Below are positions 27,072 through 49,702 of a stretch of 64,000 bases of DNA, piece by piece; position 1 is the stretch's first letter; every line of letters starts with the position of its first letter. The translations under genes and the position numbers were made by a program. The notes beneath the pieces were generated by a model that was given only the letters and a program-made list of their open reading frames with translations, had not been told where the DNA came from and ran no database searches. Origin of the DNA: Nitrospirales bacterium. GTDB lineage: Bacteria; Nitrospirota; Nitrospiria; Nitrospirales; UBA8639. Location: the NCBI GenBank assembly GCA_022825885.1, contig JAJDVY010000029.1, positions 1 through 64,000 on the forward strand, read 5' to 3'.

Positions 27072-27158
27072 GACAACCTCCTTTCTCGTTTTTTGTTTGT
27101 CAATTCTTAATTTATTAACGACCATGAAAATTAATAAAACAAATAAATAATATAGAGT

Positions 27159-27185: not shown

Positions 27186-27300
27186 TTTATGCCTGCTGAC
27201 AAGCCGCATTAAGGTACCGGACGTGTGACACGTCGATGTTCAAAGGTGAATTGTTCTGCAGGCGGAAAGAGAGCGAGGCGTCTGAAAAAAGCCGGCTCTT

Positions 27301-31252: not shown

Positions 31253-32497
31253 CTAATTGAACACGATGCTAACACTTGCGCCGAAAATGATCAGGGCCAG
31301 GCAACAGATTTCGGCAACTTTCAGATCGGTATAGGGGATGTCCGATCGTGCTTTTCCGAAGAGTGTATGATGCAGCACATGTGAGAAATGCCAACTTCCA
31401 AACATCCAGACACCGAGAAACAGCAACGAAATGATGACGAAAGAGCCCTCCTGGCTTTCCGCTCCCGGCATGGTCGTGATACCCCCAAAGAGTGGAATGA
31501 TTGGAAACAGGACGGCGATGCTGATCAAAAGGCTCACGAACGTCCCGAGACGCGGCATGGGAGCTGCCAACCCGGGGAGATTGCCGATGATGTGCGACCC
31601 ATACCGTTGCTGGACAAACGTATAGGCGACAAACAGTCCGTTCATGATCAATCCGACCGTGACCCCGAATGGGATTCCCCATAGGGAAAAAGAAGAGAAG
31701 ACGGTCGTCAGTCCCCACAAAAGCGCGACCTGGACAATAGTCGCATAGGTCAGCAAAACATGGATCTGGTTCTGCCCCAAACACTTCAGGGCCGCGTACA
31801 GCCCGCCCAGTAAGGCCAGTAATCCGATGGCGACGCGCATTTCCGTTTCCATGGGAATCATGGTTTGCAGGTTCTGGATTTCGGCCAATCCGAGGGATAA
31901 GAACGCCACGGTCCATACCCCGGAAAGAATGCCTCGAGCAGAACCGACCAGGGAGGCGAAGAGAACGTGAAATGGAGGCAGCGGCACGAGCGTGACCGCG
32001 AGAAAAAGGCCGGCTGGTTCGTAAAAAGAATCCCCCGCCCAGAAAGACACACAGACGAGCAATATGGCAAGAGCCGACTGCGCAAGACCGAAGGTTTTGC
32101 GCGTGACGGAAATATTCGACCGGTAGAGAGAATAGGCCGCATAACCGAGCAAGCCAATGAGAAAATACCCGTTGGTGGGCGCGGGGCCGAGCAATGCGGC
32201 AAGACACAGTCCCAATACCGCCAGGGGTTCGTCCAGGATGCTTGAAGAACGTGTGGAATGCCATTGTCCGAGGACGACGCAAAACGTCGAAAAGATGACG
32301 GCCGTTGATAGATACATCGCCGTGTGAGTGATTTCGAATGTGGCGTGCATGTAGAACGTCGTTCCGGCTTCCCACCCGATGCACAGCATGGCTAAAACCT
32401 GAAAGGTCAAATGCGAAATGCGGCAGGTTCGGTTAATGAACCAGAGAGCAAAGGGGATGAGAACAGCCAGCAACGTGATGGAAAATTCTGAAGCCAT
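31253..32497 (-). CDS. Nuo-like (proton-translocating) membrane protein between dabB and dabA
   Basis: The ATG at 32497 lies 8 bp after the dabB stop (an ATG at 32518 inside dabB is the alternative), giving 414 residues. About 12 membrane helices are visible. The sequence resembles an antiporter-type subunit (NuoL/M/N): VPLPPFHVLFASLVGSARGI has the usual broken-helix Pro, and conserved-looking Glu and Lys lie in helices (SLGLAEIQNLQ, YAALKCLGQNQIHVLLTYAT). It is more diverged than DabB and I cannot assign a standard name. It is in the dab operon, so it may be a second channel for the pump. Confidence 0.75.
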   Translation of the reverse strand: MASEFSITLLAVLIPFALWFINRTCRISHLTFQVLAMLCIGWEAGTTFYMHATFEITHTAMYLSTAVIFSTFCVVLGQWHSTRSSSILDEPLAVLGLCLAALLGPAPTNGYFLIGLLGYAAYSLYRSNISVTRKTFGLAQSALAILLVCVSFWAGDSFYEPAGLFLAVTLVPLPPFHVLFASLVGSARGILSGVWTVAFLSLGLAEIQNLQTMIPMETEMRVAIGLLALLGGLYAALKCLGQNQIHVLLTYATIVQVALLWGLTTVFSSFSLWGIPFGVTVGLIMNGLFVAYTFVQQRYGSHIIGNLPGLAAPMPRLGTFVSLLISIAVLFPIIPLFGGITTMPGAESQEGSFVIISLLFLGVWMFGSWHFSHVLHHTLFGKARSDIPYTDLKVAEICCLALIIFGASVSIVFN

Positions 32498-32505
32498 GAC
32501 GGATT

Positions 32506-34209
32506 TTAATATCGGCATCCGAATTTTTGTGCCAATTGGAAGAGTTTGTTGCCCCACCGCATATAGATCAGATCGACGTACAACCGGTTGATCAGAAGAA
32601 TATAGAGCCGTTGTTGCCATGCAGAAATCCAGTCCGGACTCAAAATCGCGTGTCCTCTGGCATCGGTATAGACGTAGCCCCAGCCGAAAAGAATAAACAC
32701 GGTCGCCAGCAGGATCATCGTATCGAACACTGCAGGGTTCAATGCCGCGGCCACGAAGAATGCTTCGGCCGCACCTGGTTCGGGATACAGAAAGTGCGTG
32801 AATTGCTCGCCCGCCCAGAGGTACGTGAATCCAATGAGAAACAACGTACCGATCATGGCGCTGGCTATTTTCCAGGAAGCCACGTCATGCAGTCGATACA
32901 AACTGAAAATGGCTTGAGAGGCGGTGACCCAACTGAAAAAGAGAAATATGACCGCTCCATGGGCGTCCTGGAGAGGCACTTCCAACAGACCGTGTGCGAC
33001 CATCAAAATAAACAACGGCATGATTAAGGTGATGATCAATCCCGTCACCCAGCTTGCCTGGGTGGGAATCCTCGCTGGCTTGTGGGTTGACGAAGCAGGG
33101 AATTTGGGTTCGTGTCTGGCATCATGAATCACGGCCCCGGCGCTTAAGAAGAGTGAGGCCTTGAACAGGCCGTGTGCAATCAGATGGAAAATGGCCAGGG
33201 CAAAGGCCCCCAGGCCACATTCCATGATCATGTATCCCATTTGTCCCATCGTGGAAAATCCCAGCGTCTTCTTAATGTCGTTTTGGACGAGCATCATGGA
33301 GGCTCCCAGAAGAACGGTGGCGACGCCGACGATGAATACGATATGCAGGACTTCTGGTGAGAGGGCATACAACGGTGCGAGTCGATTCAGCAGGAACCCT
33401 CCCGCGTTGACAATGCCCGCATGCATGAGCGCCGAAACCGGGGTTGGAGAATCCATGGTATCCGGCAACCAGACGTGGAGAGGAAACTGAGCCGATTTGG
33501 CCATGGCTCCGATGAAAATCAGCACCGTAATGACGGACGTGGCCGAGACGTCGAGCAAATTTGCGGGCAGCAGTGAGATCACGTGGGTTTGTTCCGAGGC
33601 TCGTTGGAAGAGTTCGGTGAATTCGAGCGTGCCGAAATAGTGATACGTCAAGACAAGGCCGCAGAGGAAAGCGACGTCTCCGACCCGGTGGACGATCAAC
33701 GTTTTGAAGGCATTCTGATAGGCCGGCACGTGCGAAAAATTAAACGCAAGAATGAGGTACAGGACCCAACTCAGCAACTGCCAGAAGACAAACAGCATCA
33801 GGAGGTTCGGACTGGAAACAAGAGCGAGGATGACAAAGGTCATGAAGCTGAGTAACGCGAAAAATCGGGCATAGCCGGAATCGCCTCGGAGATAACGAAC
33901 GGAATACACGTGAATCACGGTGCTGACGCTGGTGATCAGGACCATCATCACGGCCGTGAGCCGGTCAACCCACATGCCGAACGTGAAAAACGAGGAATCA
34001 TTGTTCTGGAGCGGCCAGAAGGACACCCGAAAAGGCTCGCCCGAGCTGACGGCGTACAGCGTCACAATGGAGAAGATGCCGGCGCCGACCGTGGCACTGA
34101 TTCCTATCGTGGTCACATACGAGGCGAATCGTTTCCCGAGGACACTGATCAACACTCCGGCAAAAAACGGAAGAAGGGGAATGAGGATGGCTGTTGTCGT
34201 CATCATCAA
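32506..34209 (-). CDS. dabB: Inorganic carbon pump subunit DabB (NuoL-like)
   Basis: The 567-residue protein is an NADH dehydrogenase subunit 5/NuoL homologue without any other complex I gene around. Signatures are AKSAQFPLHVWLPDTMDSPTPVSALMHAG (as AKSAQFPLHVWLPDTM and then SPTPVSALMHAG), the VQNDIKKTLGFSTMGQMGYM helix and GLFKASLFLSAGAV. In DAB pumps this subunit couples cation flow to CO2 hydration by DabA. It heads the operon dabB - Nuo-like - dabA - PII. Its divergent upstream neighbour is a decayed LysR gene. Confidence 0.95.
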   Translation of the reverse strand: MMMTTTAILIPLLPFFAGVLISVLGKRFASYVTTIGISATVGAGIFSIVTLYAVSSGEPFRVSFWPLQNNDSSFFTFGMWVDRLTAVMMVLITSVSTVIHVYSVRYLRGDSGYARFFALLSFMTFVILALVSSPNLLMLFVFWQLLSWVLYLILAFNFSHVPAYQNAFKTLIVHRVGDVAFLCGLVLTYHYFGTLEFTELFQRASEQTHVISLLPANLLDVSATSVITVLIFIGAMAKSAQFPLHVWLPDTMDSPTPVSALMHAGIVNAGGFLLNRLAPLYALSPEVLHIVFIVGVATVLLGASMMLVQNDIKKTLGFSTMGQMGYMIMECGLGAFALAIFHLIAHGLFKASLFLSAGAVIHDARHEPKFPASSTHKPARIPTQASWVTGLIITLIMPLFILMVAHGLLEVPLQDAHGAVIFLFFSWVTASQAIFSLYRLHDVASWKIASAMIGTLFLIGFTYLWAGEQFTHFLYPEPGAAEAFFVAAALNPAVFDTMILLATVFILFGWGYVYTDARGHAILSPDWISAWQQRLYILLINRLYVDLIYMRWGNKLFQLAQKFGCRY

Positions 34210-34411
34210 GTATTCTCTTGCAAACGGACGAGTCTGTCGATCATGACGGTCTTTGCCAACAAAAACGGAGACGTTCGGTTATACGTCTTTTCATCGTTCA
34301 GTTTGTGCCAAAGAAGGTGGGGAGGGTGACGTACGGCCTGACATTTGGTCTTCTTTTCCGCTCAAGCGGAAGCACGTTCATCAATGATTACTGGTAATAA
34401 TCAACGTGTCT

Positions 34412-34465
34412 TTTATAGGCAAATAAATAATTTTTATGAATTCATCTATTTTTTAAATGTACAGG
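34412..34465. promoter_or_regulatory. Relic LysR promoter/operator region upstream of dabB
   Basis: This block resembles the region before the intact LysR gene (38813-38866): both have TATAGGCxAATAxATAATT, then GATTCATCTATTTTTT (here AATTCATCTATTTTTT) and TACAG before the start codon. It lies between the divergent dabB gene and the LysR remnant, where a LysR-type operator is expected. AT-rich; may still serve dabB. Confidence 0.5.
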
Positions 34466-34473
34466 ATGGCGTC

Positions 34474-34605
34474 ATGAAGTGGTTGAATGACCGCCATTTG
34501 CTTCATTGAATTATGCGCGCTTGAAGACGCCGGTCGGTGAGAAGTTGTTTTTGCGCGCAGGCCGGAAACTGGTTCTGAGGGACCTCGGGAAAGGAGTCTC
34601 TCTTG
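34474..34605 (+). pseudogene. Decayed LysR-type regulator gene (5' remnant)
   Basis: The first codons (MKWLNDRHLLH, then stop at 34507) match the start of the intact regulator at 38877 (MDWLNYHHLLYF). After a gap of about 75 bp relative to that gene, bases from about 34515 match the codons for TLEDAIGEKLF...RKLILTDVGK, but with one inserted base near the EDA segment. So the copy has an internal deletion, stops and a frameshift, and later bases are not recognisable. It points away from dabB, the usual LysR arrangement, and lies on the boundary of the exporter genes. Confidence 0.8.
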
Positions 34606-34702: not shown

Positions 34703-35743
34703 CTATCTCTCGGGTAGTGCCTCGCCGTGGCTTTCTCCCGGCATTCCCGGCATTAAAGCCGCGGAATCGGAAACGTCGGCCATTGCGTCATCCGGCAACG
34801 AGAACAACGCATCAAGTTCGGTTAAGGCGCTGAAAAAGTAAAACACGACATACGTACGTTTTATGACGGATTCCAGATTGACCAACAGACTTGCGACGAT
34901 AACTTCGGCTGCGACAAGTTGCCCCAAGGTCAATTCCCCTTGGCTGAGCAGCCACCCCGCGGTTCCCAACAAGCCGGTCTGCAGAAACACCTGAAGCGCC
35001 AGCCAACCGATATATTGACGCAGCAGGATGCCGAAACGGGATTCGCGCGCCCTGACGTAAACTCTCGCCAATGCATCCGCTTGTCCCATGAGGTCGATCC
35101 CGGTTGCCGCATTGAAGCGAGCCCGGTCGCTGGTTACTTCCTGAAGCCAGCGAAAGACGTTGTATTTGGCTTCAGACATATGCAACGTGGTGTGAACCCC
35201 TCCTTTGCCCAAAATCCCGATCAGAACCACCGAGCCCAGCAACATGAGGTCGAAGACGATGAAGTACGGATGATAGAGGACCAGCAGCGCCATGCCGATC
35301 AATCCTCCGACCAACACATTGGTAAAATCGACCAGCAAGCCGGAGAGGGCTCGTTGCAGAAAGACCGTTTCAAAAAAACGATTGATCGAATCAGATTGAA
35401 AGGTCTCTCCCTTGACGCGTGAGACGATTTGCGCGAGTGCCAGCGTGACGCGAACAAAAAGACGTCGTTCGAGAATATCGGTTGCATAGAATTGCAGAAT
35501 GCGAAAGGCGCCGACGAAAAACAGAATAATCGCCATAATGCCGATGATCGTCGCCAACATCACCGGCGAAACCGTGAAGGCAAAGGTATTGACCAGTTCC
35601 TGAACCGTGAGGGGAATGATCAGGGAGAAGATCCCCACCGCGACGGCATAGGTCAGAATCGACAGAAGAAGCATGCGTTCATGCCAGATGAACAGTCCCA
35701 GGCGGTCGAGATAACTTTTGTAGTCAGGCAGAGTTGTCCTCAT
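34703..35743 (-). CDS. ABC exporter transmembrane protein lacking the ATPase domain
   Basis: The 346-residue protein has the six-helix type I exporter fold (ILTYAVAVGIFSLIIPLTVQELVNT at the start; LERRLFVRVTLALAQ coupling helix; LTLGQLVAAEVIVASLLVNLES near the end). Type I exporters continue with a nucleotide-binding domain after the ELDALFSLPDD linker seen here, but this one stops after a short Pro/Gly tail (about 25 residues). Walker A, signature and Walker B motifs are absent, and no free-standing ATPase gene lies nearby. It might work with an ATPase encoded elsewhere or be a cut-off gene. It is 6 bp from the tolC-like gene. Confidence 0.85.
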   Translation of the reverse strand: MRTTLPDYKSYLDRLGLFIWHERMLLLSILTYAVAVGIFSLIIPLTVQELVNTFAFTVSPVMLATIIGIMAIILFFVGAFRILQFYATDILERRLFVRVTLALAQIVSRVKGETFQSDSINRFFETVFLQRALSGLLVDFTNVLVGGLIGMALLVLYHPYFIVFDLMLLGSVVLIGILGKGGVHTTLHMSEAKYNVFRWLQEVTSDRARFNAATGIDLMGQADALARVYVRARESRFGILLRQYIGWLALQVFLQTGLLGTAGWLLSQGELTLGQLVAAEVIVASLLVNLESVIKRTYVVFYFFSALTELDALFSLPDDAMADVSDSAALMPGMPGESHGEALPER

Positions 35744-35749
35744 GCTCTT

Positions 35750-37234
35750 TCAAGGCCTATCGTGGGTTGCGTCCGGTATTGAGGGGTGCGACGGTCCGTT
35801 CACCCATTGTCCGATCGCCCATTGATACAACGCCAGCGCTTTTTGGTAGTCGGCCAGCGCGTGAATCCACTCCTCGGCCGACCGAATGACGTTTCTTTCC
35901 CGAAGATTGACGAAGACCAAACTCGTTGCTCCATGCCTAAATCGCTTGCGTTCCCCCTTTTCCAGGGCTTGGGCCAGGTCAAGCGCCCGTCGGGAAACTT
36001 CGATCCGTTCCTCCGCGCGGGCGACGGCTGATCGGGCATTGTCCACGTCCAGGGACACTTGTTGAATGCGATAGTGCTGCATGAATTTCAGGCGTTGGGC
36101 TTTGCCCTCGATCTGAAGGTGGTCCCCTCGTGCATTCCGTTGCAGGAACGGAAAACTCATCTGTACGCCGAATCGATAGCCCAGACCCAGGACGAACTCT
36201 CCGGGCTTTCTCGATGGCTGGGCATCTGCGGTCAGATTTGGAAGAAAATTATTATTGGCCACTTCCAAGTCGATGTGATTCAATTTGGCTTCCAGATTGA
36301 CGAGTTGGACCTCCGGACGAACGGCGATGGCCCGTTGCTTGTCCTGCTCGTGGTGAGAGATCGTCTCTTGTTGAAGCAATGAAATGTCCGGAGGCTTCAA
36401 GTGTCGTACGACGACCGGATTGCCGTCCTCCCACAGGAACAAGGCGAGTTTCAACTGTTCCCTCTCGAGCGTGCGTCTCGCCTTGATCGAGGCTGCTCGT
36501 CGTCGTTGCACTTCCTGGTTGGCTTCAATGACGTCGAACTCGGCCCTCGCTCCGGCCTTGGCTTGTCTCGTCAATTGCCGGGAACGAGTCCCGGCTACGG
36601 TGACGGCTTTCTCCTGTAACTCCGCGAATTTATGCGCGGCAGCCCAGTTCCAGAATTGCATTGCCGCCCCACGATACAAATCCTGCCGTGTTTGTTGAAT
36701 GTGGAGTTCGGCCTGTTTGGTGGCCAATTCGGATTTCTTGAGTTCTGCATGGGCAGGATTTGTGACCAGCCCGCGCAGGAGAGGAAATGCAATTCCCAAC
36801 AACGGTTGGTTCGTCGAATTGATATCCAAATCCGCGATTCTGACGTCCCCGATGCCTGCCCGGAATCCGGCAAATCCCTGGACGCCCCATGGGTGACGGA
36901 ATTCCACAAACGTATCATTGAATCCCATACTCGTCGTGGTGTCGGAACTGCCGGCGAGTCGTTCCAATTCCCAATCGTTGACGAGTTTTGGTTCGAAAGT
37001 CCCCAACGCTTTCAGTAATTTCCCGCTGGCCACGATCTTTTGTGTTTGACTTCCCTGAAGAAGCGGATGCCCTTGTTCCACTCGGGCCAAAACGTCTTTC
37101 AACGTCAGAATAGCCCGTGGCGTTTTTTTTGAAGATGGCGTTGCCGGTTTTTCCGCCCCCGCGGGGATCACGAGGAATCCCATAAGCCAGATGACAACCG
37201 CTATTCGTAGACTCTTCATCTTCACTTCTCCCAT
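35750..37234 (-). CDS. TolC family outer-membrane channel protein
   Basis: The 494-residue protein has a signal peptide (MKSLRIAVVIWLMGFLVIPAGA reading, about 22 residues, likely start near the MKSLRI Met) and the two alpha-helical repeats of the outer-membrane efflux family (RQTRQDLYRGAAMQFWNWA..., RARRTLEREQLKLALF..., LRERNVIRSAEEWIHALADY). TolC-like trimers form exit ducts for type I secretion and drug efflux. It is the middle gene of an HlyD-TolC-ABC set. Confidence 0.9.
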   Translation of the reverse strand: MGEVKMKSLRIAVVIWLMGFLVIPAGAEKPATPSSKKTPRAILTLKDVLARVEQGHPLLQGSQTQKIVASGKLLKALGTFEPKLVNDWELERLAGSSDTTTSMGFNDTFVEFRHPWGVQGFAGFRAGIGDVRIADLDINSTNQPLLGIAFPLLRGLVTNPAHAELKKSELATKQAELHIQQTRQDLYRGAAMQFWNWAAAHKFAELQEKAVTVAGTRSRQLTRQAKAGARAEFDVIEANQEVQRRRAASIKARRTLEREQLKLALFLWEDGNPVVVRHLKPPDISLLQQETISHHEQDKQRAIAVRPEVQLVNLEAKLNHIDLEVANNNFLPNLTADAQPSRKPGEFVLGLGYRFGVQMSFPFLQRNARGDHLQIEGKAQRLKFMQHYRIQQVSLDVDNARSAVARAEERIEVSRRALDLAQALEKGERKRFRHGATSLVFVNLRERNVIRSAEEWIHALADYQKALALYQWAIGQWVNGPSHPSIPDATHDRP

Positions 37235-37274
37235 CTGATGGCATGCTCTTGCGCATCCGGTCCGTCTGCCTGGT

Positions 37275-38702
37275 TCACTTGTCGCGGCGTCCGGCTTTCG
37301 GCAGAAACACGTCGGTCAACGCTTTTTCTCCAGTTTCATAATCTGGCGGAAATAAATTGAACCGACGCCACATCTCGTACCACAAGGGGACGCGATTGAG
37401 GATCACCCATCCCATGGCTTGGGTCCCTTGCCGGACTTGTTCTTGAGGCGGCCAGTCTCGACGTGTCGTCTCAGGCACCACCCATAAACGAAATTTGCCG
37501 TTTGCCGAAGCCGATTGATCCACGACCCGAATGCGTCCGTCGTAGGTGCCCACCATCGACTCGGGCCACGCCGGCAGGGGAATGGCCGGGATGCCGTGAA
37601 GCAACAAGCGAACCGGTCTGCCCGGCTTCAGCAGTGGGGCATCAATCGCCTCGGCCCACATTTCAACGGCTCGGTTGGCATTCGATGGGACGATCGTAAA
37701 TAACGCGTCCCCCGGATGCACGATTTCGCCCAGACCGACCGGGGTCACATGGACCACGGTGCCGTCCAGAGGGGCGACGACACGGCCGGCCTCACGTCGT
37801 TGCATGGCATTGGACCGTTTCAATTCCAAATCCGCCAATTCTTCGGATGCCTTGGCTGCATCGGCAAGGGTGGAAGCCCTTTGGGATCGCGTATCCAGTT
37901 CCCGTTGGATCAATTCCGCGTCAATTTGTTCACGACCGTGTGCCAAGGCCCGTTGTGCCTGTACCGCTTCGCGCAACGCAGCTTCGGCCGCCTTCAGTTC
38001 CGCGCGGGAGGCGATTTCGGTTTGGATCGCCAATTCAAGTTCCCGTCGGGAAACCAAGCCGTCAGCCTCCAAAAGGCGTGAACGCTCCAAGTTCAAGGTG
38101 GCGGTCTCCAGGGTCACTTTTGCCCCGGCTACGCGTTGCCTGGCAATTTGGATTTTATGATCAGCCTCGGACACCCGGGCTTGGGCCGATGTCGTGGCGG
38201 CTTGCGTCAGCTTCGTCATTTCTTCAAGACGCTGGGCCAAGATATCGGCACGCGTCAAAGCGGCTTGACGGCGGTCTTCCAGGGCTTTCCGGGATTGATC
38301 CAATCGTTGCTGGAGATCCGGAGCCATGAATTGAGGATTCACGTCGTCCATCTCGAGAATCAGGTCTCCGGTCTTGACGGCCATGCCTTCATTGACGTGC
38401 CACGCGCGGACGCGCCCGTTGATCCGGGCGTGAATTTCCTGAGGTCGTTCGGATGGCGAATATGCGGATAATTGGCCTTCGACGGTGACCGTCTGCGTCC
38501 ACGGCACGAAACTCATGATCATGCCGAAGACCAGAAGAAGTCCGATGATCGAGCGCGCCCACGTCCGCAATCGACGTGGAATGCGTACTGCGACATGAGA
38601 GCTCAGCCGTCTAGTCGATGGAAGAAAATGGACGCCGAAGAGCCCGAGTTCTCGGCCGGGTTTCCATCTTCTCGGCACAAGATTTTTTCCTGGAACATCC
38701 AT
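37275..38702 (-). CDS. HlyD-type membrane fusion protein
   Basis: The 475-residue protein has one membrane helix near 48-66, then a biotinyl-lipoyl-like hybrid motif (INGRVRAWHVNEGMAVKTGD), a long coiled-coil hairpin (about 125-290) and the second half of the lipoyl domain (RVVAPLDGTVVHVTPVGLGE) with the beta-barrel segment. It joins an inner-membrane exporter to a TolC channel. It is divergent from the LysR gene with a 174-bp gap, so the exporter operon may now be under LysR control. Start ATG at 38702. Confidence 0.92.
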   Translation of the reverse strand: MDVPGKNLVPRRWKPGRELGLFGVHFLPSTRRLSSHVAVRIPRRLRTWARSIIGLLLVFGMIMSFVPWTQTVTVEGQLSAYSPSERPQEIHARINGRVRAWHVNEGMAVKTGDLILEMDDVNPQFMAPDLQQRLDQSRKALEDRRQAALTRADILAQRLEEMTKLTQAATTSAQARVSEADHKIQIARQRVAGAKVTLETATLNLERSRLLEADGLVSRRELELAIQTEIASRAELKAAEAALREAVQAQRALAHGREQIDAELIQRELDTRSQRASTLADAAKASEELADLELKRSNAMQRREAGRVVAPLDGTVVHVTPVGLGEIVHPGDALFTIVPSNANRAVEMWAEAIDAPLLKPGRPVRLLLHGIPAIPLPAWPESMVGTYDGRIRVVDQSASANGKFRLWVVPETTRRDWPPQEQVRQGTQAMGWVILNRVPLWYEMWRRFNLFPPDYETGEKALTDVFLPKAGRRDK

Positions 38703-38876: not shown

Positions 38877-39776
38877 ATGGATTGGCTCAACTACCACCAT
38901 CTACTCTATTTCTGGGTGATTGCCCGGGAAGGATCCATTAAGAAAGCCTGTGAAGTGCTGACGTTGTCCCAGCCCGCGCTGAGTGCGCAATTGCGCACCC
39001 TTGAAGACGCGATAGGTGAGAAATTGTTTTCTCGCGTCAGCCGCAAACTGATTCTGACGGACGTGGGAAAAGTGGTCTACCGTTACGCGGACGAAATTTT
39101 TTCGCTCGGCAGAGAATTGACCAGTACGCTGAAAGGCTATGGAACCCAACGCCCTATTCGCCTGGTGGTCGGCATTGCTGAAGTCGTCCCCAAAATGGTG
39201 GCCTATAAACTGCTGAAGGTGGCGTACAAACAGTTCGAGCACATGAAGATCGTGTGCTGGGAGGGTCGATTGGAACGGTTGTTGGGTGAACTCGCTCTTC
39301 ATGCACTGGACATTGTCTTAACGGACACTCCCGTTCCGCCCAGCGTCAGCATCGAAGCTCACAGCCATCTGCTCGGGGAATCAGGCGTGACGCTTTTCGG
39401 TCCGGAAGACTTGGCCTCTCACTATCGGTGGAAGTTTCCACAATCATTGAATGGAGCCCCGTTTCTGTTGCCCACGCCCAATTCCATACTCAGACGGGGC
39501 TTGGATGATTGGTTTCGAAAATACGGGATAGAGCCGCTCATTGTCGGCGAGTTTGAAGACGGGGCCACGATGCAAGCGTTCGCCCAGGAAGGGCACGGGT
39601 TGTTTCCCGGCTCTTCGGTCGTTGAGTCGGAAATCACTCGGCAGAATCAAGTTCAAAAAGTAGGGCGCATTACGGGGCTCAGGGAACGCTTCTATGGCAT
39701 TACGGTTGAACGCCGTTTAAAGCATCCGGCCGTTTTGGCGATTTCCGAGTCCGCGAAAGAACAAGTCTTTCGGTAA
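38877..39776 (+). CDS. LysR-type transcriptional regulator, NhaR-like
   Basis: The ATG at 38877 gives 299 residues (a TTG at 38856 would add 7). The N-terminal winged helix-turn-helix (MDWLNYHHLLYFWVIAREGS, then KKACEVLTLSQPALSAQLRTLE) and the effector domain resemble NhaR, the activator of Na+/H+ antiporter genes in E. coli; the C-terminal FEDGATMQAFAQEGHGLFP also fits. Members related to this type often stand by carbon- or ion-related operons. The matching remnant beside dabB suggests that the regulator originally controlled dab genes. Product should bind the dyad at 38802 and perhaps that at 34412. Confidence 0.92.
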   Translation: MDWLNYHHLLYFWVIAREGSIKKACEVLTLSQPALSAQLRTLEDAIGEKLFSRVSRKLILTDVGKVVYRYADEIFSLGRELTSTLKGYGTQRPIRLVVGIAEVVPKMVAYKLLKVAYKQFEHMKIVCWEGRLERLLGELALHALDIVLTDTPVPPSVSIEAHSHLLGESGVTLFGPEDLASHYRWKFPQSLNGAPFLLPTPNSILRRGLDDWFRKYGIEPLIVGEFEDGATMQAFAQEGHGLFPGSSVVESEITRQNQVQKVGRITGLRERFYGITVERRLKHPAVLAISESAKEQVFR

Positions 39777-39780
39777 TGTT

Positions 39781-39972
39781 CTTGCTGTCATACATAATAC
39801 CACCACGGCCCGGATCACGGCGATCATCCAAAAGCACGCAATCCTTCGGCAACTCCTGCACAATCAATGGCTCACCCTCGTGTCCCATGACCCCTCTCCC
39901 TTCGAGTTTCATCGCTACAATCCCGATGCCACTTGGGAATTGATCGGGCAAAACATGTTCTCCACGGCATAA
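39781..39972 (+). pseudogene. 3' remnant of a second dabA gene (DUF2309 C-terminus)
   Basis: This frame, without a start, encodes 63 residues that align to the C-terminus of the DabA in this window: ARITAIIQKHAILRQLLHNQW here against ERISTIISRHEVLKRLVGNQW there, without gaps over about 30 residues. Then LTLVSHDPSPFEFHRYNPD aligns with INLVALDPETMGFFHQHS. Both end some 15-20 residues later. The upstream part of the gene is missing because the LysR gene precedes it by only 4 bp. The sequence differs strongly from dabA, so it is a different paralogue, not a recent duplicate. Confidence 0.85.
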
Positions 39973-40036: not shown

Positions 40037-40086
40037 CTCGTCGTCGGTCCGTGCGAAGAATTTCAAGTAACAATGAGGAAGGTAAG

Positions 40087-41625
40087 ATGCGAGAACAAGG
40101 GTCCCTGACTACTGTCCTGAAAAACCCCGTCGTCCTGGCGATCGGGAGTTTTCTCTGCGTGTGCCTGGCGTTGGGCGCGACGTTCTTTCAGCCGTCCACG
40201 GTCACCCAGGCTTCGGAAGAGCAGGTCGCGTCCCCTGACCTGCTTGTGCAAGCACCCTTGGCGCAGCCGGCTGCCTTTTCCCCTCCCGCCACGAGCGAAG
40301 ACCTCCTCCGGTTCAACCGGCACCTGATCGCGATTGCCAAGAAAGTCACTCCCGCGGTGGTCAATATTTCCATCGTGAAGAAGACCGCCCCGAGAAATTC
40401 TCCGTTTCCACACTCCCCGTTTTTTGACGACCCGTTCTTTCGGAAATTTTTTGGAGAGCGGTTTAGAGAGGAACGCCGTCAGGCCCCGAGACGCCGGCAA
40501 CAGGGCATGGGCTCCGGGGTGATCGTCAATCCCGATGGCTATATCGTCACGAATAATCACGTGGTGGCCGAGGGCGATGAAATCCAGGTGGTCTTGGGGG
40601 ATCAGCGGAAGTTCGAAGCGGAATTGATCGGGACCGATCCCAAGACCGACTTGGCCATCTTGAAGATTGATGCGTCGGATTTGCCGTTCCTCTCCTGGGG
40701 CGATTCCGGCGGGTTAGAGGTGGGAGAGATGGTCGTGGCCGTGGGGAATCCCTTCGGCCTGAACCAGACCGTGACCATGGGTATTATCAGTGCCGTGGGA
40801 CGGGCCAACGTGGGCATTGCCGACTACGAGGACTTCATCCAAACCGACGCGGCCATCAACCCCGGCAATTCCGGCGGGGCCCTGGTGAACGTCCGAGGGG
40901 AACTCATCGGCATCAACACGGCCATTTTCAGCCGCAGCGGCGGGTATATGGGTATCGGTTTTGCCATCCCGAGCAATATGGCCAAAGGGGTGGCGCAGAG
41001 TTTGAAAGTCTACGGCAAAATGGTACGAGGGTGGCTCGGCGTGTCCATCCAGGACCTGACTCCTGACCTGGCGAAACAATTTGACGCCACGGAGACCAAA
41101 GGCGCCCTGGTGACCGACGTGGTCGAGGGCAGTCCCGCCGAAGATGCCCTGTTTCAACGGGGCGACATCATTCGCGAATACGACGGGCGCGCAGTCGAGA
41201 ACTCGACCAAGTTGCGCACCTACGTGGCCGAGACGCCTCCCGAAACCAAGGTGGACGTGGAGATTCTTCGCGAAGGCAACAGGAAGCGCCTGACCGTCGT
41301 CATCGGACTGATGCCCAAGGATATGGCCGGGACAGGCGAAGTGGGGACCGTCGGCGAACATCACGCCCTGTCCGGCTTGACGGTCGAATCGGTGGAGCAG
41401 TCTGCCGGTGACAAAGGGGTGCGCGTCATGAAGGTCCAGCCTGACAGCCGTGCCGCCCGGGCCGGGATACGGAAAGACGACGTCATCATGGAAATCAACC
41501 GGATCTCCATCGCGGATGCGGACGACTTCGATCGCGTCACCAGTCAACTCGACGAGGACGATGCGGTCCTGGTCCTCCTCAGACGAGGCCGCTCGACGCT
41601 CTTCCTGTCGATCGGCGGAAGATAG
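40087..41625 (+). CDS. Periplasmic Do/HtrA-type serine protease
   Basis: The ATG at 40087 (GAGGAAGG upstream) gives 512 residues. An N-terminal membrane anchor (about 14-34) leads to a trypsin-like domain with the full triad His158 (NNHVVAEGDE), Asp188 (KTDLAILK) and Ser262 (NPGNSGGALVN), followed by two PDZ domains (about 295-390 and 415-505, RVMKVQPDSRAARAGIRKDD). These proteases and chaperones handle misfolded envelope proteins. Single transcription unit after the dabA remnant. Confidence 0.93.
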   Translation: MREQGSLTTVLKNPVVLAIGSFLCVCLALGATFFQPSTVTQASEEQVASPDLLVQAPLAQPAAFSPPATSEDLLRFNRHLIAIAKKVTPAVVNISIVKKTAPRNSPFPHSPFFDDPFFRKFFGERFREERRQAPRRRQQGMGSGVIVNPDGYIVTNNHVVAEGDEIQVVLGDQRKFEAELIGTDPKTDLAILKIDASDLPFLSWGDSGGLEVGEMVVAVGNPFGLNQTVTMGIISAVGRANVGIADYEDFIQTDAAINPGNSGGALVNVRGELIGINTAIFSRSGGYMGIGFAIPSNMAKGVAQSLKVYGKMVRGWLGVSIQDLTPDLAKQFDATETKGALVTDVVEGSPAEDALFQRGDIIREYDGRAVENSTKLRTYVAETPPETKVDVEILREGNRKRLTVVIGLMPKDMAGTGEVGTVGEHHALSGLTVESVEQSAGDKGVRVMKVQPDSRAARAGIRKDDVIMEINRISIADADDFDRVTSQLDEDDAVLVLLRRGRSTLFLSIGGR

Positions 41626-41679
41626 CGGACGCCCAGTCGTTGAGTGACGCCAGGGCTAATAACCGGACATTCGGTGTCT

Positions 41680-42588
41680 ATGTTGGGAACCTTTTGCAGA
41701 AGGATATTTTCCAAAACGATAGAAACCATAGAAATAAAAACGTGGGAAGATCTACTAAAACAGGAAGAAGACCTAAGAGTAAATGAGTGGTTGTTCAGAG
41801 GCATGCCGTGTGCCGGATGGAAGTTAAAAACCTCCCTGGAACGCGCTTGCGAAAATTACTATGAAAATTGCCACGGCGGTCATCTTAGTAAAGCTGCGCA
41901 CCTCGAATACGTTCTTTACCGCGAATTTCGACGCCGGTATCATAACCACAGTGTTGGAATTCCTGACCCAGTTGGGATTGAATGGCTTTCACTCATGCAG
42001 CATTATGGTGCCCCTACACGCCTCCTCGATTTTACCTACTCCTTTTTCATTGCAACCTATTTTGCAGTCGAAAAGCCATGTGAGGAATCATGTTGCCATG
42101 CCATATGGGCCGTCAGGAGCAAATGGGTCGAAGAGGAGGGGATTAAATTGCTTAAATGTGGGAGGAAGGACACAGGCTATCTCGACAATAAGCAGAACGA
42201 ACGGGAATGGGAATTACAAAAATCTTTTTTTGAATCACTCTTGAATCTTGAAGAGCACGATCTTGAAAAACGTACTGAACACAGTCAACGTGATCCTCTT
42301 TGTGTCTTTCCGATAAACGCGATGAAACTTAATGATCGATCCACGATACAACAGGGAGTCTTTCTCTGCGCAGGTAATGTCACAAGACCCTTTGAAGAGA
42401 ATTTGAAAAATCTACACGGCTTTGACAAACGAAAAAATCTTGTAAAACTCTTCATTCCACATAAACTGCGCATAGATGTTCTCAGAAAACTGTATTCAAT
42501 GAACATCAACAAAGCAACCCTCTTTCCGGGACTTCAAGGCTTTGCCGAATCTTTAGGAATCTATCATCCGCTGGCATTTGGTTCATGA
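41680..42588 (+). CDS. FRG domain protein at the border of a defence island
   Basis: The ATG at 41680 gives 302 residues (the open frame begins at 41644). An FRG domain is marked by LFRGMPCAGWKLKTSLERAC (F-R-G motif near residue 50) and LSLMQHYGAPTRLLDFTYS near 110-130. FRG domains occur in phage and mobile-element-associated proteins of unknown activity. The gene is clearly more AT-rich than the protease gene before it, which suggests acquisition. It ends 28 bp before the mod gene and is on the same strand. Confidence 0.85.
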   Translation: MLGTFCRRIFSKTIETIEIKTWEDLLKQEEDLRVNEWLFRGMPCAGWKLKTSLERACENYYENCHGGHLSKAAHLEYVLYREFRRRYHNHSVGIPDPVGIEWLSLMQHYGAPTRLLDFTYSFFIATYFAVEKPCEESCCHAIWAVRSKWVEEEGIKLLKCGRKDTGYLDNKQNEREWELQKSFFESLLNLEEHDLEKRTEHSQRDPLCVFPINAMKLNDRSTIQQGVFLCAGNVTRPFEENLKNLHGFDKRKNLVKLFIPHKLRIDVLRKLYSMNINKATLFPGLQGFAESLGIYHPLAFGS

Positions 42589-42616
42589 CAAAAATTCTAA
42601 TGTTTTCATCCATCAT

Positions 42617-44907
42617 ATGCCGCCCTTGTCTTCGCTGAAATTATCCGACCAGGAGAAGCAGGAGATCATCCGGTATCTGGAGGCGGACAAGCCTTTGCCG
42701 GAGAAGTATCGCTTTTTTCTGTTCGGGGATAAGCGTGAAGTGGAACTGGTCTGGAATGGCAAGACCAATGACGTCTGCAATGTCGTCCTGCCGTTTCAGA
42801 CCATCGAACAGGTGGATGAGCCTCGGGCGGAAAAGCCGTCGGATGCGTCCTCGCAGATAGGCCTGTTCTCAACAGACGAGCGCGGGCGGCAACTCAAAGG
42901 CTGGACCAACAAACTCATCTGGGGCGATAACAAGCTGATTTTGTCCTCGCTCAAGAACGGACCGCTCCGCGAGGAGATCGAAGCCCAGGGCGGCATTAAG
43001 CTGATCTACATTGACCCGCCGTTCGACGTGGGCGCGGATTTCTCGATGGACCTCGAAATCGGCGGTGACACCTTCACCAAGAAGCCGAATATTCTCGAAG
43101 AAATCGCCTACCGCGACACCTGGGGCAAAGGCGCGGATTCCTTTATTGCGATGATCTACGAGCGGCTAGTGCTGATGCGCGTCTGCTGATGGAGGATGGG
43201 AGTATTTACGTGCATTGTGACTGGCGAGTGAATGGTTATTTGCGGTTAGTTTTGGATGAAATTTTTGGAACAGGAAGCTTCTTAAACCAAATCACTTGGA
43301 AACGTCAGACTTCATCTGGTTATAAAGGAAAGAATTTTCTTGGGAAAAATCACGATGACATTTTTCTTTATCGTCGTTCTTCTCAAACATCTTACAGTGT
43401 GGAAATGCTTCCATACAGTGAAGAGTATGTTAAACAACGATTCTCCCACATAGAAGAAAAAACAGGGAGGAGATTTAAAGATGCTTTTTTAGGAACTGCT
43501 ACAACCAATGAAACAATTGAGAGACTAAAAAAGGAAGATAAAATATATTATACGGAATCTGGTGGGATGCGTCTGAAAATCTACCTTGATGAGACTGCAG
43601 GCGTCCCGCTTGATGATATTTGGGCGGACTTGAACTTTATTAACTCAATGTCAGCAGAGCGCATCAACTATCCTACCCAAAAGCCCGAAGTTCTGCTTGA
43701 ACGTATCATCAAGGCTTCCTCCAACGAAGGCGATCTTGTCGCCGATTTCTTCTGCGGCTCTGGCACAACTGCAGCGGCTGCAGAAAAATTGGGCCGCAAA
43801 TGGATTTGCTCCGATCTCGGCAAGTTCGCCATCCACACAACCCGCAAACGTATGATTGAAGTGCAAAGGCAATTGAAAGCGGACGGTAAGGACTACCGCG
43901 CCTTTGAAATTCTCAACCTTGGCAAATACGAACGCCAGCACTTCGTCGGTATCAACCCCAGCCTTCGCGAGGAAGAACGACAGAAGCAATTGCAAGAGAA
44001 GGAAGCGGCCTTCCTCGATTTGATCCTCAAAGCCTACCATGCAGAAAAAATAGAACATGTTTCTGTCTTCCACGGTAAAAAAGCCGGGCGGCTGGTAACG
44101 GTGGGACCGGTGAACCTACCCGTCACCCGCCTCTTTGTGGAAGAGATTATTCTGGAGTGCCGAAAGCATCACATCACGAAGGTGGATATGCTCGGCTTCG
44201 AGTTTGAGATGGGGTTGTTTCCCAACGTGCTGGACGAGGCGCGTGCCAAAGGCATTGATCTGGCGCCCAGATACATCCCTGCCGAGGTCTTCGACAAGCG
44301 AGCCGTGGAGAAGAACCAAGTCGTGTTTCACGACGTGGCTTTCATCGAAGTCAAACCGCACGTGCAAGCGGGTAGGAAGAACCAGCCTGCCACGGTGGCG
44401 GTAGAACTCACCGATTTCTCGGTATTCTACTCCCAGGATTCAATCGCCAACGCCGAGGTCGCCCTGTCGGCCAACACAAAAGCCGGGAGTAAGATTGTGG
44501 TGGAAAAAGGCCGGATTGTGAAACTGAGCAAGGACAAAAACGGCGTCATGAAACGCGAGACGTTGACCCGGCATTGGACGGACTGGATCGACTACTGGAG
44601 TGTGGATTTCGACTTCGAGAGCAAACGAGAAATTATCCGCGTCAAAAAAGAGGAACTTTCACCTGATGCACAAACGACCCTGGAAGAGATGGGCGATGCA
44701 CAACAGAATCTGTCGGTCTGGGAAGAGCAGTGGACCGGCGACTACATCTTCGAGAACGAATGGCAGAGCTTCCGCACGAAAAAGGACCGCTCCTTGGAAC
44801 TCAAAAGCGTGGCCCACGAATGCCAGCCCGGCCGCCGCAAGATCGCCGTCAAAGTGGTAGATATCTTCGGCAACGACACTATGACGATTGTGGAGGTAAT
44901 GGTATGA
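42617..44907 (+). pseudogene. mod: Type III restriction mod (DNA methyltransferase), interrupted by one frameshift
   Basis: Two frames together make a Mod protein. The first (to 43189) carries the DPPF catalytic motif IV (YIDPPFDVGADF). The second (from about 43180) carries the SAM-binding motif I (VADFFCGSGTTAAAAEKLG). The beta-class order, DPPF before FxGxG, matches type III Mod. Near 43175-43185 the frame breaks: restoring one A (CGC G-T CTG CTG to CGC GAT CTG CTG) reconnects LVLMRDLLMEDGSIYVHCD. Codons from 43200 to about 43660, the target-recognition part, are much more AT-rich than both flanks. Either an indel or a sequencing error. ATG at 42617 is preferred. Confidence 0.85.
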
Positions 44908-46256
44908 ATACAATCAATAAATTCTTCTTGCGTGACGTGCGCTGCTTTGATGGTGAACATGAATTTAATATACGTCCATTAACTTTTCTGATTGGTGAAA
45001 ACAGCACGGGGAAATCGACCCTCCTTGGTTGTCTTCAAGCGTTAGGGAATTTATTCAATTACGGAGGTCCTTCTGAATCCCAAATTGATTTTAATTTTGA
45101 ACCCTATCAGATGGGGGCCTTTGCAGATATTGTCAGAAGGTCAACTCCCAAAAAAGAGGATTTTCGATTGGGCATTGAGTACAAAAGTGGAGAAAAAAAA
45201 TTAAAGTTTTCTCTAACCCTAACCGAGAGAGGCAGGGGATCTGAACCAATTATTCAGTATACAAGATGGGCTTTTGATGATGGACAAATAGTTTTTTTTA
45301 TAAACGAAAGCGACCGAGACTCAAAGAAAAAGCGTAATTTCGAGGTCACATATGGAGCAAATCAAAGCGAATTTCTTGTTTTAACTAATAATAGATATTG
45401 GTTTCGTTGGCATTGGTTCTCTTTAGGCTACTTATATGAGTATTTGTCTGAATCACGAAAAGAGCTAGAATCTCCCGCAAACAATCTTTTGCAGTTTTTG
45501 GATCGTCAATTTGCCAAGGATCGTGAAAAAAAAGAGAGTCGTCCCCGTCGCTTTCGACTCGTGGAAGATTTGCACTTCGACTTATCCCAGATTTACAGCA
45601 TTGCGCCGATCCGTTCAAAGCCAAAACGCACCTATGATCCTCTGAAGGAGACGGAAACGCCTGATGGCAGTGAAATACCAATGGTGCTGATGAATTTAAG
45701 TACAGCAAGTGGGGATGCATGGGAAACCCTAAGAAAAGGTCTATTGAAGTTTGGACATGCTTCCGGTCTGTTCACCGATATTGCGCTTAGAAAATTAGGA
45801 AGTTCCAAGAGCGATCCCTTTCAATTGCGGATTAAAGTCAGGGGACCCAGCACAAATCTAATGGATGTGGGATACGGCGTCAGTCAGGTGTTACCTATTT
45901 TGGTGCGCATCTTTACAGAGCAGCACGCAACGTTTTTGTTGCAACAACCAGAGGTCCATTTGCATCCAAGAGGACAGGTCGAACTGGCTTCTTTGCTCGT
46001 TGATATAAATCGGACACATGGAAACTCTTTTGTCATCGAAACTCACAGTGATTACATGATAGATCGTATTCGAATTGAGATCCTGAATGGCAATATAAAA
46101 CCCGATGATGTTTCGCTAATTTATCTGGAGCCTTTCGGCAACAGAGTGAAGACCCATAACATTAGCTTTGATGCTCAAGCCAATATGATGAACGTTCCTG
46201 AAGGTTATAGGGAATTTTTCCTCAACGAATCGAACAAATTGCTTGGTTATGATTGA
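44904..46256 (+). CDS. AAA/ABC-type ATPase embedded in the type III restriction locus
   Basis: The start overlaps the mod stop (ATGA at 44904-44907), so it belongs to the operon. The 450-residue protein has Walker A GENSTGKST at 31-39, a long insertion, and near the C-terminus LLQQPEVHLHPRGQVELASL (ABC-type Walker B/D-loop region) and IETHSDYMIDRIRIEI (H-loop). This matches the AAA_15/AAA_21-type family (DUF3696-like) that occurs in OLD-type and other defence systems. It lacks a TOPRIM nuclease domain. AT-rich. A PIN-like gene follows 3 bp later. Confidence 0.88.
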   Translation: MNTINKFFLRDVRCFDGEHEFNIRPLTFLIGENSTGKSTLLGCLQALGNLFNYGGPSESQIDFNFEPYQMGAFADIVRRSTPKKEDFRLGIEYKSGEKKLKFSLTLTERGRGSEPIIQYTRWAFDDGQIVFFINESDRDSKKKRNFEVTYGANQSEFLVLTNNRYWFRWHWFSLGYLYEYLSESRKELESPANNLLQFLDRQFAKDREKKESRPRRFRLVEDLHFDLSQIYSIAPIRSKPKRTYDPLKETETPDGSEIPMVLMNLSTASGDAWETLRKGLLKFGHASGLFTDIALRKLGSSKSDPFQLRIKVRGPSTNLMDVGYGVSQVLPILVRIFTEQHATFLLQQPEVHLHPRGQVELASLLVDINRTHGNSFVIETHSDYMIDRIRIEILNGNIKPDDVSLIYLEPFGNRVKTHNISFDAQANMMNVPEGYREFFLNESNKLLGYD

Positions 46257-46259
46257 GTT

Positions 46260-46676
46260 ATGTGCCTGATACTAGACGCGAATAAATACGGTGAGTTTCT
46301 TGATCCGGGCAATACAGACATGGAGCCGGTAAGACATTGGATCAAGAAGAACAATGGAAAAATAGTTTATGCGGCGACTGAAAAGATGCAGGATGAACTT
46401 AGCAGATTTCAGTCGATGAAAAGACTTTTTAGTGAATACCGGCAGGCGGGACGATTAAAATTATTCGATAAAGAAAAAGTAAAGGAAGAAGAAAATGAGA
46501 TAAGGGATCTCTTATCCAACGATAAACATATTATTGCGTTAGCTATGGTGTCTGGCGTCAAACTATTGATTTCGGGAGATAAGAAATTACAAGAGGATTT
46601 TAAGGGAATCATAAGAGGAAAAATTTATAAAAATAAGAGTCATAAGCATCTTCTTAGGCAAGACACTTGCCCCTAA
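46260..46676 (+). CDS. PIN-domain-like protein paired with the ATPase
   Basis: The 138-residue protein begins MCLILDANKYGEFL with the first PIN acidic residue Asp6. Other acidic positions fit a PIN fold: Glu46 in KMQDELSRF, Asp88 in LSNDKHIIALA and Asp107 in ISGDKKLQEDF. PIN domains are metal-dependent RNases. The gene follows the ATPase by 3 bp and precedes res by 24 bp, so an ATPase-nuclease pair is likely: one controls, one cuts. Only weak similarity can be judged by eye, so a divergent PIN is the best call. Confidence 0.75.
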   Translation: MCLILDANKYGEFLDPGNTDMEPVRHWIKKNNGKIVYAATEKMQDELSRFQSMKRLFSEYRQAGRLKLFDKEKVKEEENEIRDLLSNDKHIIALAMVSGVKLLISGDKKLQEDFKGIIRGKIYKNKSHKHLLRQDTCP

Positions 46677-46700
46677 TTCTGCCGCATCCATTCTAGGATA

Positions 46701-49393
46701 ATGGCCCTCCATCGCTATTTTCCCCACTCCCCCCACGAGATTCTTGACCCCGAACGCCGCTGGTTCCCGGCGGATGAAGCCCTCCGTGATACGACGATGG
46801 AGAAGCTGATGCCGCCGCTGGTGGCGGAACTTCGGCGAAGGGTAAAGGAATTGCGCGATAACGGGTACGAGAGGGCATCCGATACCAGTCGAAGTCTACT
46901 CAACTGGTGGTTCAAGGAACAGCATTTGCTGCCCGGAGCAGACGGCAGCATGGAGACTTTTGAATACTACTTCGCCCAACGGGAGGCGATAGAGACACTT
47001 GTTTACCTCTATGACGTTGTTGGTGCCAAGGACAAATACGATCTGATGCGTTTTGATAGTAGTGGAGTAGTGTCAACCGGGATGTTCGATGAAACGTGGC
47101 GGCGCTACGTGATCAAAATGGCGACGGGCAGCGGCAAGACCAAGGTGATGAGCCTAGCCTTGGCATGGAGTTTCTACCACAAGCTCTATGAGCCGGAGTC
47201 GGAGTTGTCCCGCAATTTTCTGGTGATCGCGCCCAATATCATCGTCCTAGACCGCCTTTATCGTGATTTTCAGGGCTTACGGATTTTCTTCACCGATCCG
47301 GTTATTCCCCACAATGGCTTCGATGGCCGCAATTGGCAGGATGATTTTCAATTGACCCTGCACAAACAGGACGAGGTACGGGTGACTCACCAGACGGGAA
47401 ACATTTTCCTGACCAATATCCACCGTGTGTATTCCAGCGAGGACATCCCCCCGTCGTTCGACGACGAGAACACGATGGATTACTTCCTCGGCAAGCGGCC
47501 CACAGGAGCCACAACTGATTCCAGCGTCGATTTAGGGATGATCGTGCGAGACATTGACGAATTGATGGTCCTCAACGACGAGGCCCATCATATCCATGAT
47601 TCGCGGATGGCTTGGTTCAAGTCGATAGAAGACATTCACAACCGGTTATTGCAGAAGGACAGCGGCCTGAGTTTACAGGTGGACGTGACAGCTACGCCCA
47701 AGCACAACAATGGGGCGATTTTTGTGCAAACGGTGGCCGATTACCCTCTGGTTGAGGCGATTTCGCAAAATGTGGTCAAGCATCCCGTATTGCCGGATGC
47801 CCCGAGCCGGTCCAAGCTGCAAGAGCGGCAGAGCGCGAAGTTTACCGAGAAGTACGCGGACTACCTTGATCTGGGGGTAATCGAGTGGCGTAAAGCTGAT
47901 CAAGAGCACCGGAAACTGGGTAAGAAGGCGATCTTGTTTGTCATGACGGACGATACAAAGAATTGTGACGAGGTCGCCGCGTACTTGGAGAATCGCCATC
48001 CTGATCTGCAGGGCAGTGTACTGACAATTCACACAAAGCAGAACGGGGAGATTTCCGAAGCATCCTCCGGGAGGGCGAAGGAAGAGTTGGAGAAGCTGCG
48101 CAAAGAGGCAAACGAAATCGACAATCCGGCGAGTCCCTACAAGGCAATTGTCTCTGTGCTGGTGCTGAAGGAAGGCTGGGATGTGCGGAACGTCACGACG
48201 ATTGTCGGATTACGTGCTTACTCGGCGAAGAGCAATATCCTGCCGGAGCAGACGCTGGGGCGTGGCTTGCGCAGGATGTACCCTGGGGATGCAGAAGAAT
48301 ATGTCAGCGTCGTGGGCACCGAGGCTTTCATGGATTTCGTCGAGTCCATCCAAGCCGAAGGTGTAGAATTGGAACGCCGGGCCATGGGAAAAGGCACCGC
48401 ACCGAAAGCCCCCTTAGTCGTGGAGGTTGATCAGGAGAATAAGGACAAAGATTTTGATGTACTGGACATTGAGATTCCGGTGCTGACGCCTCGTATTTAC
48501 CGGGAATACAAGAACTTGGCTGATCTTGATGTCGTCGCGATGGCGTTTCAAACCTGTGAATATCGAAAATTTAGCGAGGAAGATCAACGCGAGATCGTGT
48601 TCAAGGACATCACCACCGGTGAAGTGACCCACATGACTGTGCTGGACGGTGCGGGAATTGCCGACTACCAGAGCGTGATAGGTTATTTCGCGCAGACCGT
48701 CATGAAGGAAATGCGGCTGGTGAGTGGCTACGATGTGCTGTACGCTAAGATAAAGCGTTTCATGCAGGAAAGATTATTTTCGCGATCAGTCGATCTGGAA
48801 GCGCCCAACACCTTGCGGAACCTTTCCGAGATAGCTGTGACCAGCACGTTGATCGAAACATTCAAGAAGGCGATTAACAATCTGACCGTACGCGACAAGG
48901 GCGATGCGAAAATCCGCGACACCATCAAACTGCGCCGGACGAGGCCTTTTGTGGTGAAAAATCAGAGCTACATGATGCCAAAGAAGTCGGTATTTAACCG
49001 GATCATTGGTGATAGCCATTTTGAGTTGGAATTTGCCAATTTTCTTGAGCAGTGCGGCGACGTGGTGTCCTACGCGAAGAACTACCTGGCGGTGAATTTC
49101 AAATTGGATTACGTTAAAGCTGATGGTGACATCTCGAATTACTATCCGGATTTCATCGTAAATTGAGCAACGGACGAGTGGTAATTGTGGAAACCAAAGG
49201 GCAACAAGACCTGGATGTGCCGTTAAAGATGGTCCGCCTGTGCCAATGGTGTGAGGACATCAACAAGGCACAGATTGAAACAAATTTTGACTTTGTTTTT
49301 GTAGATGATACAGGGTTCGAAAAGTACCAGCCAAAGACCTTTGCGGAATTGTTCGCTGTTTTCAGGGAATATAAATCCTATTCTGCAGAATGA
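46701..49393 (+). pseudogene. res: Type III restriction res subunit, interrupted by one frameshift near the nuclease motif
   Basis: The 821-residue first frame (46701-49166) carries helicase motifs: KMATGSGKTKVMSLALAW (Walker A), DEAHHIHDSRM (motif II) and LPEQTLGRGLRRM (motif VI). The C-terminal endonuclease has the PD in YYPDFIVN, after which the frame stops. The second frame (from about 49163) supplies VVIVETKGQQDLD, the ExK of the PD-(D/E)XK site. One added A in GTAAATTGAGC rejoins them as PDFIVKLSNGRVVIVETKG. So the nuclease motif is split exactly; the helicase part is intact. Confidence 0.88.
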
Positions 49394-49702
49394 ACGAGTT
49401 TTTTAATCTGGTAGCTACCACCACGAGAGGCTATTCCCGTCACGTAATGTGCAGGTTCCAGCTCTGTCTGGAGGATTCTCCTTCCTGTCAGGCTGAGGAT
49501 GAGACCGGTTTCTTCTGAATTTCTGGTCCTGAAAGCCGTGCCGTTCCTCAACGTGGTGGATGCCAGCGTCACGTCTCTCATTCAACACACGACGGGCGCA
49601 CCGGCGGTTTCTCAACTGCCCTGACAAATCGTTAGCGTTTCTGTCAAATGAAAATTTTCCGTTCTCTTGACTTGTTCCTTTATGAGGATTATCAATTTTA
49701 GT
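49394..49702. other. Intergenic region after the restriction locus
   Basis: A 309-bp stretch without a supported gene. I see no clear terminator, repeat or RNA. The tail may contain the promoter of the 49703 gene (AT-rich from 49640 to 49700). Confidence 0.4.

Follow-up and report, generated by a model that had tools for sequence, protein, structure and literature searches.

A dabA remnant beside an intact LysR gene points to a probable in-place replacement of one carbon pump by another in a Nitrospirales genome

Introduction

The window analysed here, a stretch of 64,000 nucleotides from a Nitrospirales bacterium (assembly GCA_022825885.1, contig JAJDVY010000029.1), contains an intact dabA with a LysR remnant beside its dabB partner and, elsewhere, an intact LysR gene followed by a start-less frame resembling the C-terminus of DabA. 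The questions are what this frame is left from, and what was lost together with it. The earlier note took the two places for twin LysR-dab loci that had decayed in complementary ways. The lost gene is called dabA2 below and the intact one dabA1; the name dabA2 implies no orthology to DabA2 of Halothiobacillus neapolitanus. Genomes compared are designated by G numbers (G000 is that of the window), and most of them are draft MAGs. The records include Nitrospira sp. bin75, SB0677, SB0662, RHO3, CO36405 and Plut, which, going by their isolate names, we take to be mostly of sponge or coral origin.

Results

The frame at 39778-39972(+) is open for 63 codons, has no start codon ahead of its homologous part, and contains a genuine DabA C-terminus of 47 codons (A11-G57 of the frame). 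A PF10070 (DabA) profile search of the whole genome revealed two places only, the intact dabA and the fragment, the latter aligning to model positions 718-747 (30 positions at the extreme C-terminus) with 10.7 bits, under the cut-off of 25. It was also found by tblastn with the window's own DabA (E=1.5e-5, 35% identity, 55 residues). Comparison with the dabA2 C-termini of G011, a member of the same genus, and of G004 and G006 gave 76%, 72% and 71% identity, respectively (E 6e-20 to 1e-21; 1e-21 for G011), and nucleotides 39806-39947 matched the end of dabA2 of G006 over 142 bp (75% identity, E=4e-24). The position is orthologous too, directly upstream of degP, as dabA2 is in relatives. By its identity to G011 and the degP synteny the fragment is thus orthologous to an intact member of the DabA family, which scores 888 bits with PF10070.

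The start-less frame reported in the earlier note is therefore real, but the DabA homology is confined to a part of it. The first ten codons (VLAVIHNTTT, about 30 bp) appear from the comparison to be the 3′ flank of LysR and not DabA, and the residues QNMFSTA after ELIG are seven read-through codons beyond a mutated stop. The zinc ligands and the Asp-Arg dyad, which are required for DabA activity (PMC13144422), are present in intact dabA1 and dabA2, and none of them falls within the last 47 codons. We regard the fragment as the remnant of a dead gene because it has no start, no catalytic residues and a mutated stop codon. Its dN/dS against intact dabA2 was about 0.1 over 46 compared codons, which are too few to prove life or death; the low value speaks for recent decay, and the codon pattern would not by itself prove death.

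Table 1. Coordinates of the features discussed, in the numbering of the window
Feature	Position	Strand	Evidence and remarks
mpsC	26101..26472	-	PF10057, 127.8 bits; adjoins and diverges from dabA2 in relatives
Region that once lay upstream of the dabA2-side LysR, with a small secreted-protein gene at 26703-27125(-)	26608..27193	.	matches the LysR upstream region of G006 at 78% over 588 bp
PII-like gene, downstream of dabA1	27629..27964	-	PF00543, 79 bits
dabA1, intact, with catalytic Cys-Asp-Arg, His and Cys motifs	27996..31241	-	PF10070, 892 bits; motifs
dabBb1, between dabA1 and dabB1	31253..32620	-	no Pfam match
dabB1, NuoL/MrpA-like	32506..34209	-	PF00361, PF00662
Second LysR gene remnant with its upstream region, divergent from dabB1	34354..34599	+	
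Efflux operon (transporter membrane protein, TolC-like OEP, HlyD-like) in the dabB1-LysR interval	34703..38702	-	also in G009 and G012
Intact LysR-family regulator, NhaR-like	38877..39776	+	NF008284 (NhaR), 222.1 bits, cut-off 219; 89-92% in 9 congeners
LysR 3′ flank joined to the dabA2 remnant	39777..39807	+	left deletion junction, accurate to a few bases
dabA2 remnant	39808..39948	+	last 47 codons (ARITAIIQKH...WELIG); without start and catalytic residues
Read-through past the lost dabA2 stop to the next stop	39949..39972	+	TAA in G005, G007, G012 and G013 against CAA in the window
degP/htrA serine protease, conserved right neighbour of dabA2	40051..41625	+	TIGR02037, 499.5 bits; synteny
Defence-like island between degP and the mrpE-nuoM fossil	41644..49166	+	FRG-like protein (PDC-S15); type III restriction-modification genes (type III methyltransferase, type III restriction enzyme); NsnB-like ATPase
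mrpE′-′nuoM deletion fusion	49490..49625	+	13 mrpE codons and some 28 from the end of nuoM; fossil left by the Mrp-NuoL-NuoM operon
Conserved gene after nuoM in dabA2-bearing relatives	49667..50410	+	79% to G011

A tree of 32 full-length DabA proteins separated the clades A1, which holds the dabA of the window, and A2 with 100/100 support, and on this phylogeny we take A1 and A2 to be two old dabA clades. The fragment is too short for the full-length tree, and a separate tree of C-termini was used, in which it fell among the A2 rows with weak support; in its columns 38/56 positions are identical to A2 of G011 and 19/56 to its own A1. A recent copy of the window's own dabA was ruled out, the identity to it being only 33%. 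The view that the frame stems from a second, anciently divergent dabA was thereby upheld.

The surviving genes correspond to a DAB complex (DabA plus DabB), with adjoining DabA and NuoL/MrpA-like DabB and intact catalytic motifs. The open reading frame at 31253-32620, named dabBb1 here, had no Pfam or NCBIfam match, and it shares 115 overlapping bases with dabB1. The dabB1 of G009 (L040, 5513-7206) is split across two frames, owing to a frameshift or an assembly error.

The dabA2 of relatives lacks a dabB neighbour and sits with degP and a Mrp-type, sodium-antiporter-like operon ending in nuoL and nuoM. The order in G006 is LysR-dabA2-degP, followed by an operon of MnhE, MnhG, MbhDE-like, MnhB, chain-4L-like, MrpD and NuoL-like genes; in G010, on whose proteins the Mrp operon families were scored, the operon directly follows dabA2 and NuoM comes last. 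All 17 of the 17 genomes checked from other genera of the family have a dabA and a NuoL-like gene, on which the linkage was judged, on the same strand and about 4-17 kb apart. The linkage of dabA2 to Mrp-NuoL-NuoM was found in G002, G006 and G010 too, and the window keeps only the fossil ends. G011, with LysR-Mrp and dabA2-degP about 265 kb apart, counts against the reading preferred below. The coordinates of degP in Table 1 are those of the open reading frame, and the alignment favours a start at 40088.

The second fossil lies about 10 kb from the dabA2 remnant. Thirteen mrpE codons (MRPVSSEFLVLKA) are fused in frame to the end of nuoM, ahead of the gene that follows nuoM in G011. Because mrpE is joined to the nuoM end, the operon was evidently removed by an internal deletion. 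The fusion forms a 41-codon open frame with a start; it is probably a fossil, and its translation is possible in principle. Of the defence-like island upstream, the type III methyltransferase is spread over two frames that overlap (42578-43189 and 43189-44907), perhaps through a frameshift. Sister genomes also hold Mrp leftovers, namely about 40 mrpB codons in G001, G003 and G005, and mrpE, mrpG and nuoM pseudogenes in G007.

The gene dabA2 was lost through at least five deletion structures: that of the window; that common to G012 and G013, where the LysR stop is joined to the final dabA2 codons; an internal deletion common to G003 and G007, with CACGTGG at both ends; a different internal deletion with a frameshift in G005; and that of G001, where no dabA2 is left. 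One in-frame TGA in dabA2 is common to G003, G005 and G007, and since all three have it, the nonsense change probably preceded the deletion. The dabA2 remnants stop where the conserved degP upstream sequence (TATGGTATAATCT) starts, a boundary that fits with selection having kept degP.

On the other side of the locus, the PII-dabA1-dabBb1-dabB1 cassette, the LysR remnant and the efflux operon separate the region at 26608-27193 and mpsC from the intact LysR gene, so that the former LysR upstream region is now about 12 kb from it. The presence of this region on the far side of the dabA1 cassette argues that the cassette entered at the LysR of the dabA2 locus. G007 has the LysR upstream region on both sides of the cassette. 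Its repeat on the PII side (L038, 2271-2976), covering that region and the LysR 5′ end, is 94% alike over 470 bp, and it looks as if it had been duplicated by the insertion. G014 and G016 are arranged differently, with dabA1 genes downstream of dabA2 in tail-to-tail orientation, and the arrangement of this genus is thus its own.

The intact LysR is only just above the curated NhaR cut-off; as an NhaR it would respond to sodium and activate an antiporter gene. In relatives, LysR adjoins dabA2, the Mrp operon, dabB1 or an HlyD-TolC operon. A LysR beside dabA2 was seen only inside this genus, and none stands there in G004, G010, G002, G014 or G016. The LysR remnant beside dabB1, which the earlier note had also recognised, is real, belongs to the same family and is nearest to the genus's own LysR, but it is too short and decayed for its parent copy to be traced. 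In G006, a small secreted-protein gene and then mpsC lie upstream of LysR. The small protein encoded at 26703-27125(-) in the window has no Pfam match; it is conserved as a LysR neighbour in G006, and L059 has a similar one. The transporter membrane protein at 34703-35743(-) is 346 aa long, has no Pfam match and may be truncated, its L059 relative being 548 aa.

The two systems are distributed in a complementary way within the genus. Intact dabA2 and a 703-aa NuoL-like subunit, without dabA1/dabB1, were found in six genomes (G002, G004, G006, G008, G010 and G011), while eight (the window's, G001, G003, G005, G007, G009, G012 and G013) have dabA1/dabB1 and neither such a NuoL nor an intact dabA2 (Fisher p=0.0003, counted on genomes and not corrected for kinship). 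A search for MnhE concurred, except for a partial copy in G007 and none in G008, whose assembly is fragmented. On an RpoB tree, which is poorly resolved, the dabA1-only genomes nest among dabA2-only lineages, except for the poorly placed G007, which stands apart from the other dabA1 genomes. Genomes of other genera, G014 and G016, have both systems. Relatives with a second dab locus, as the earlier note had expected, thus do exist, intact in G014, G016 and G024 and decayed in G003, G005 and G007.

Discussion

We consider the fragment to be the fossil, in place, of a dabA2 that was replaced in situ, together with its Mrp-NuoLM system, by dabA1-dabB1, and we put the probability of this reading at roughly 0.87. 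In the genome of the window and seven of its closest kin, the event is an in-place exchange of one known type of carbon pump for another. The homology, the synteny, the two fossils, the complementary presence and absence and the several deletion structures are what we observed. The ancestor would have had the order NhaD-SulP-mpsC-LysR(NhaR)-dabA2-degP-[mrpE..mrpD-nuoL-nuoM], with DabA2 serving an older system of inorganic-carbon uptake as its cytoplasmic subunit and working jointly with the Mrp-NuoLM proteins. A PII-dabA1-dabBb1-dabB1 cassette with its own LysR would then have entered at the LysR gene and parted it from its upstream region. Given a second pump, presumably doing the same job, dabA2 and the Mrp-NuoLM operon would have become dispensable, and deletions would have removed both, sparing LysR, degP and the degP promoter region. 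In the window, one deletion fused the LysR 3′ flank to the final 47 codons of dabA2 and a second one the initial 13 codons of mrpE to the nuoM end, while beside dabB1 a LysR copy, one of two, decayed. Among the genomes of the genus compared, none has both systems intact, so that the gain of the dabA1 cassette before the loss of dabA2 can only be inferred.

The complementary twins of the earlier note, two separate and equal LysR-dab loci of which one kept the pump and the other the regulator, would account for the occurrence of LysR as an intact copy and a remnant, and for the dabA2 remnant adjoining the intact LysR, next to which dabA2 also lies in G006. There was indeed a second dab locus, only one of two LysR genes survived, and the phrase describes the present map. 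However, the lost unit was dabA2-degP-Mrp/NuoL/NuoM with no dabB, usually without LysR in the relatives, and all parts belong to a single merged locus that encloses the cassette. The phrase is thus too simple for the loss of an old dabA2 and Mrp-like system at one merged locus, and we hold the equal-loci reading to be unlikely. A better contender, though it falls somewhat short of even odds, is that the intact LysR goes with the divergent HlyD-TolC efflux operon and adjoins dabA2 incidentally. LysR and hlyD are oriented divergently in the window, G009 and G012, and likewise in the relatives L059 and L063, whose retrieved regions contain no dab genes, and more distant Nitrospira LysR (about 55% identity) adjoin TolC operons. 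Yet in G006, G001, G013, G003, G005 and G007 LysR stands beside dabA2 or dabB1 without that operon, and its upstream neighbour in G006 and G011 is the small secreted-protein gene. As a regulator of the surviving pump LysR is putative.

Two further explanations concern the fragment alone. Continued use, whether in the form of a small peptide or within a transcript, might be read from the 63 open codons and the low dN/dS against intact dabA2, but the frame lacks a start, its old stop and any catalytic residue, and the remnants in sister genomes differ or are absent, which makes this very improbable. Chance resemblance or an assembly artefact might be suspected from the PF10070 score alone, which is under the cut-off; it was refuted by the relatives and the synteny, given the match to a congener at E=1e-21, the nucleotide identity of 75% and the exact orthologous position, and we give it practically no weight.

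Both sides of the proposed replacement resemble systems described elsewhere. DabA2 of the H. neapolitanus DAB2 complex (PDB 9rd0, 9rd8, 9rd9; PMC13144422) matches dabA1 at E 3e-112 and the intact relatives of the fragment at 6e-121, and it aligns across the C-terminal stretch that the fragment represents; unlike it, the fragment lacks every zinc ligand. DAB2 is a two-subunit DabA-DabB complex, whereas the dabA2 lost here lay with a Mrp-NuoL-NuoM operon. A COGNAT analysis of 2017 (PMC5700660) described operon types of YbcC/COG3002. PII-dabA1-dabB1 is similar to the type that has PII at its 3′ end, and the lost dabA2 locus to the type in which ybcC stands upstream of nuoL and SulP and NuoM are also present; the account of these types there leaves the small Mrp subunits (MnhE, MnhG, MnhB and others) unmentioned and does not describe one type replacing another. 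MpsABC of Staphylococcus aureus (PMC6689103) has the NuoL-like, DUF2309 and MpsC (PF10057) families in common with this locus, but at the present locus mpsC diverges from dabA2 in relatives and outlives its loss. In Ca. Nitrospira alkalitolerans, Mrp genes share a locus with genes like nuoM and nuoL and with a BicA transporter (PMC7784846), and in this it resembles the lost one; DabA is unmentioned in the description of that locus. A literature search for Nitrospira with DUF2309 or DabA found nothing directly on point.

The eight related genomes without dabA2 and Mrp-NuoLM but with another DabA-DabB pump, and the six with the reverse, amount to a natural experiment, and the joint loss is the type of evidence that speaks for dabA2 and the Mrp-like operon acting as one system. 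Tentatively, and with the odds rather against it, DabA2 could form with MnhE, MnhG, MbhDE-like, MnhB, MnhC-like, MrpD, NuoL-like and NuoM proteins a single large CO2-hydrating complex that is driven by cations or protons and related to the two-subunit DAB but made of many subunits; members of the genus would switch between this complex and the simpler DAB through in-place replacement. The locus also offers a case of an autotrophic lineage exchanging its carbon-uptake machinery at one place in the genome.
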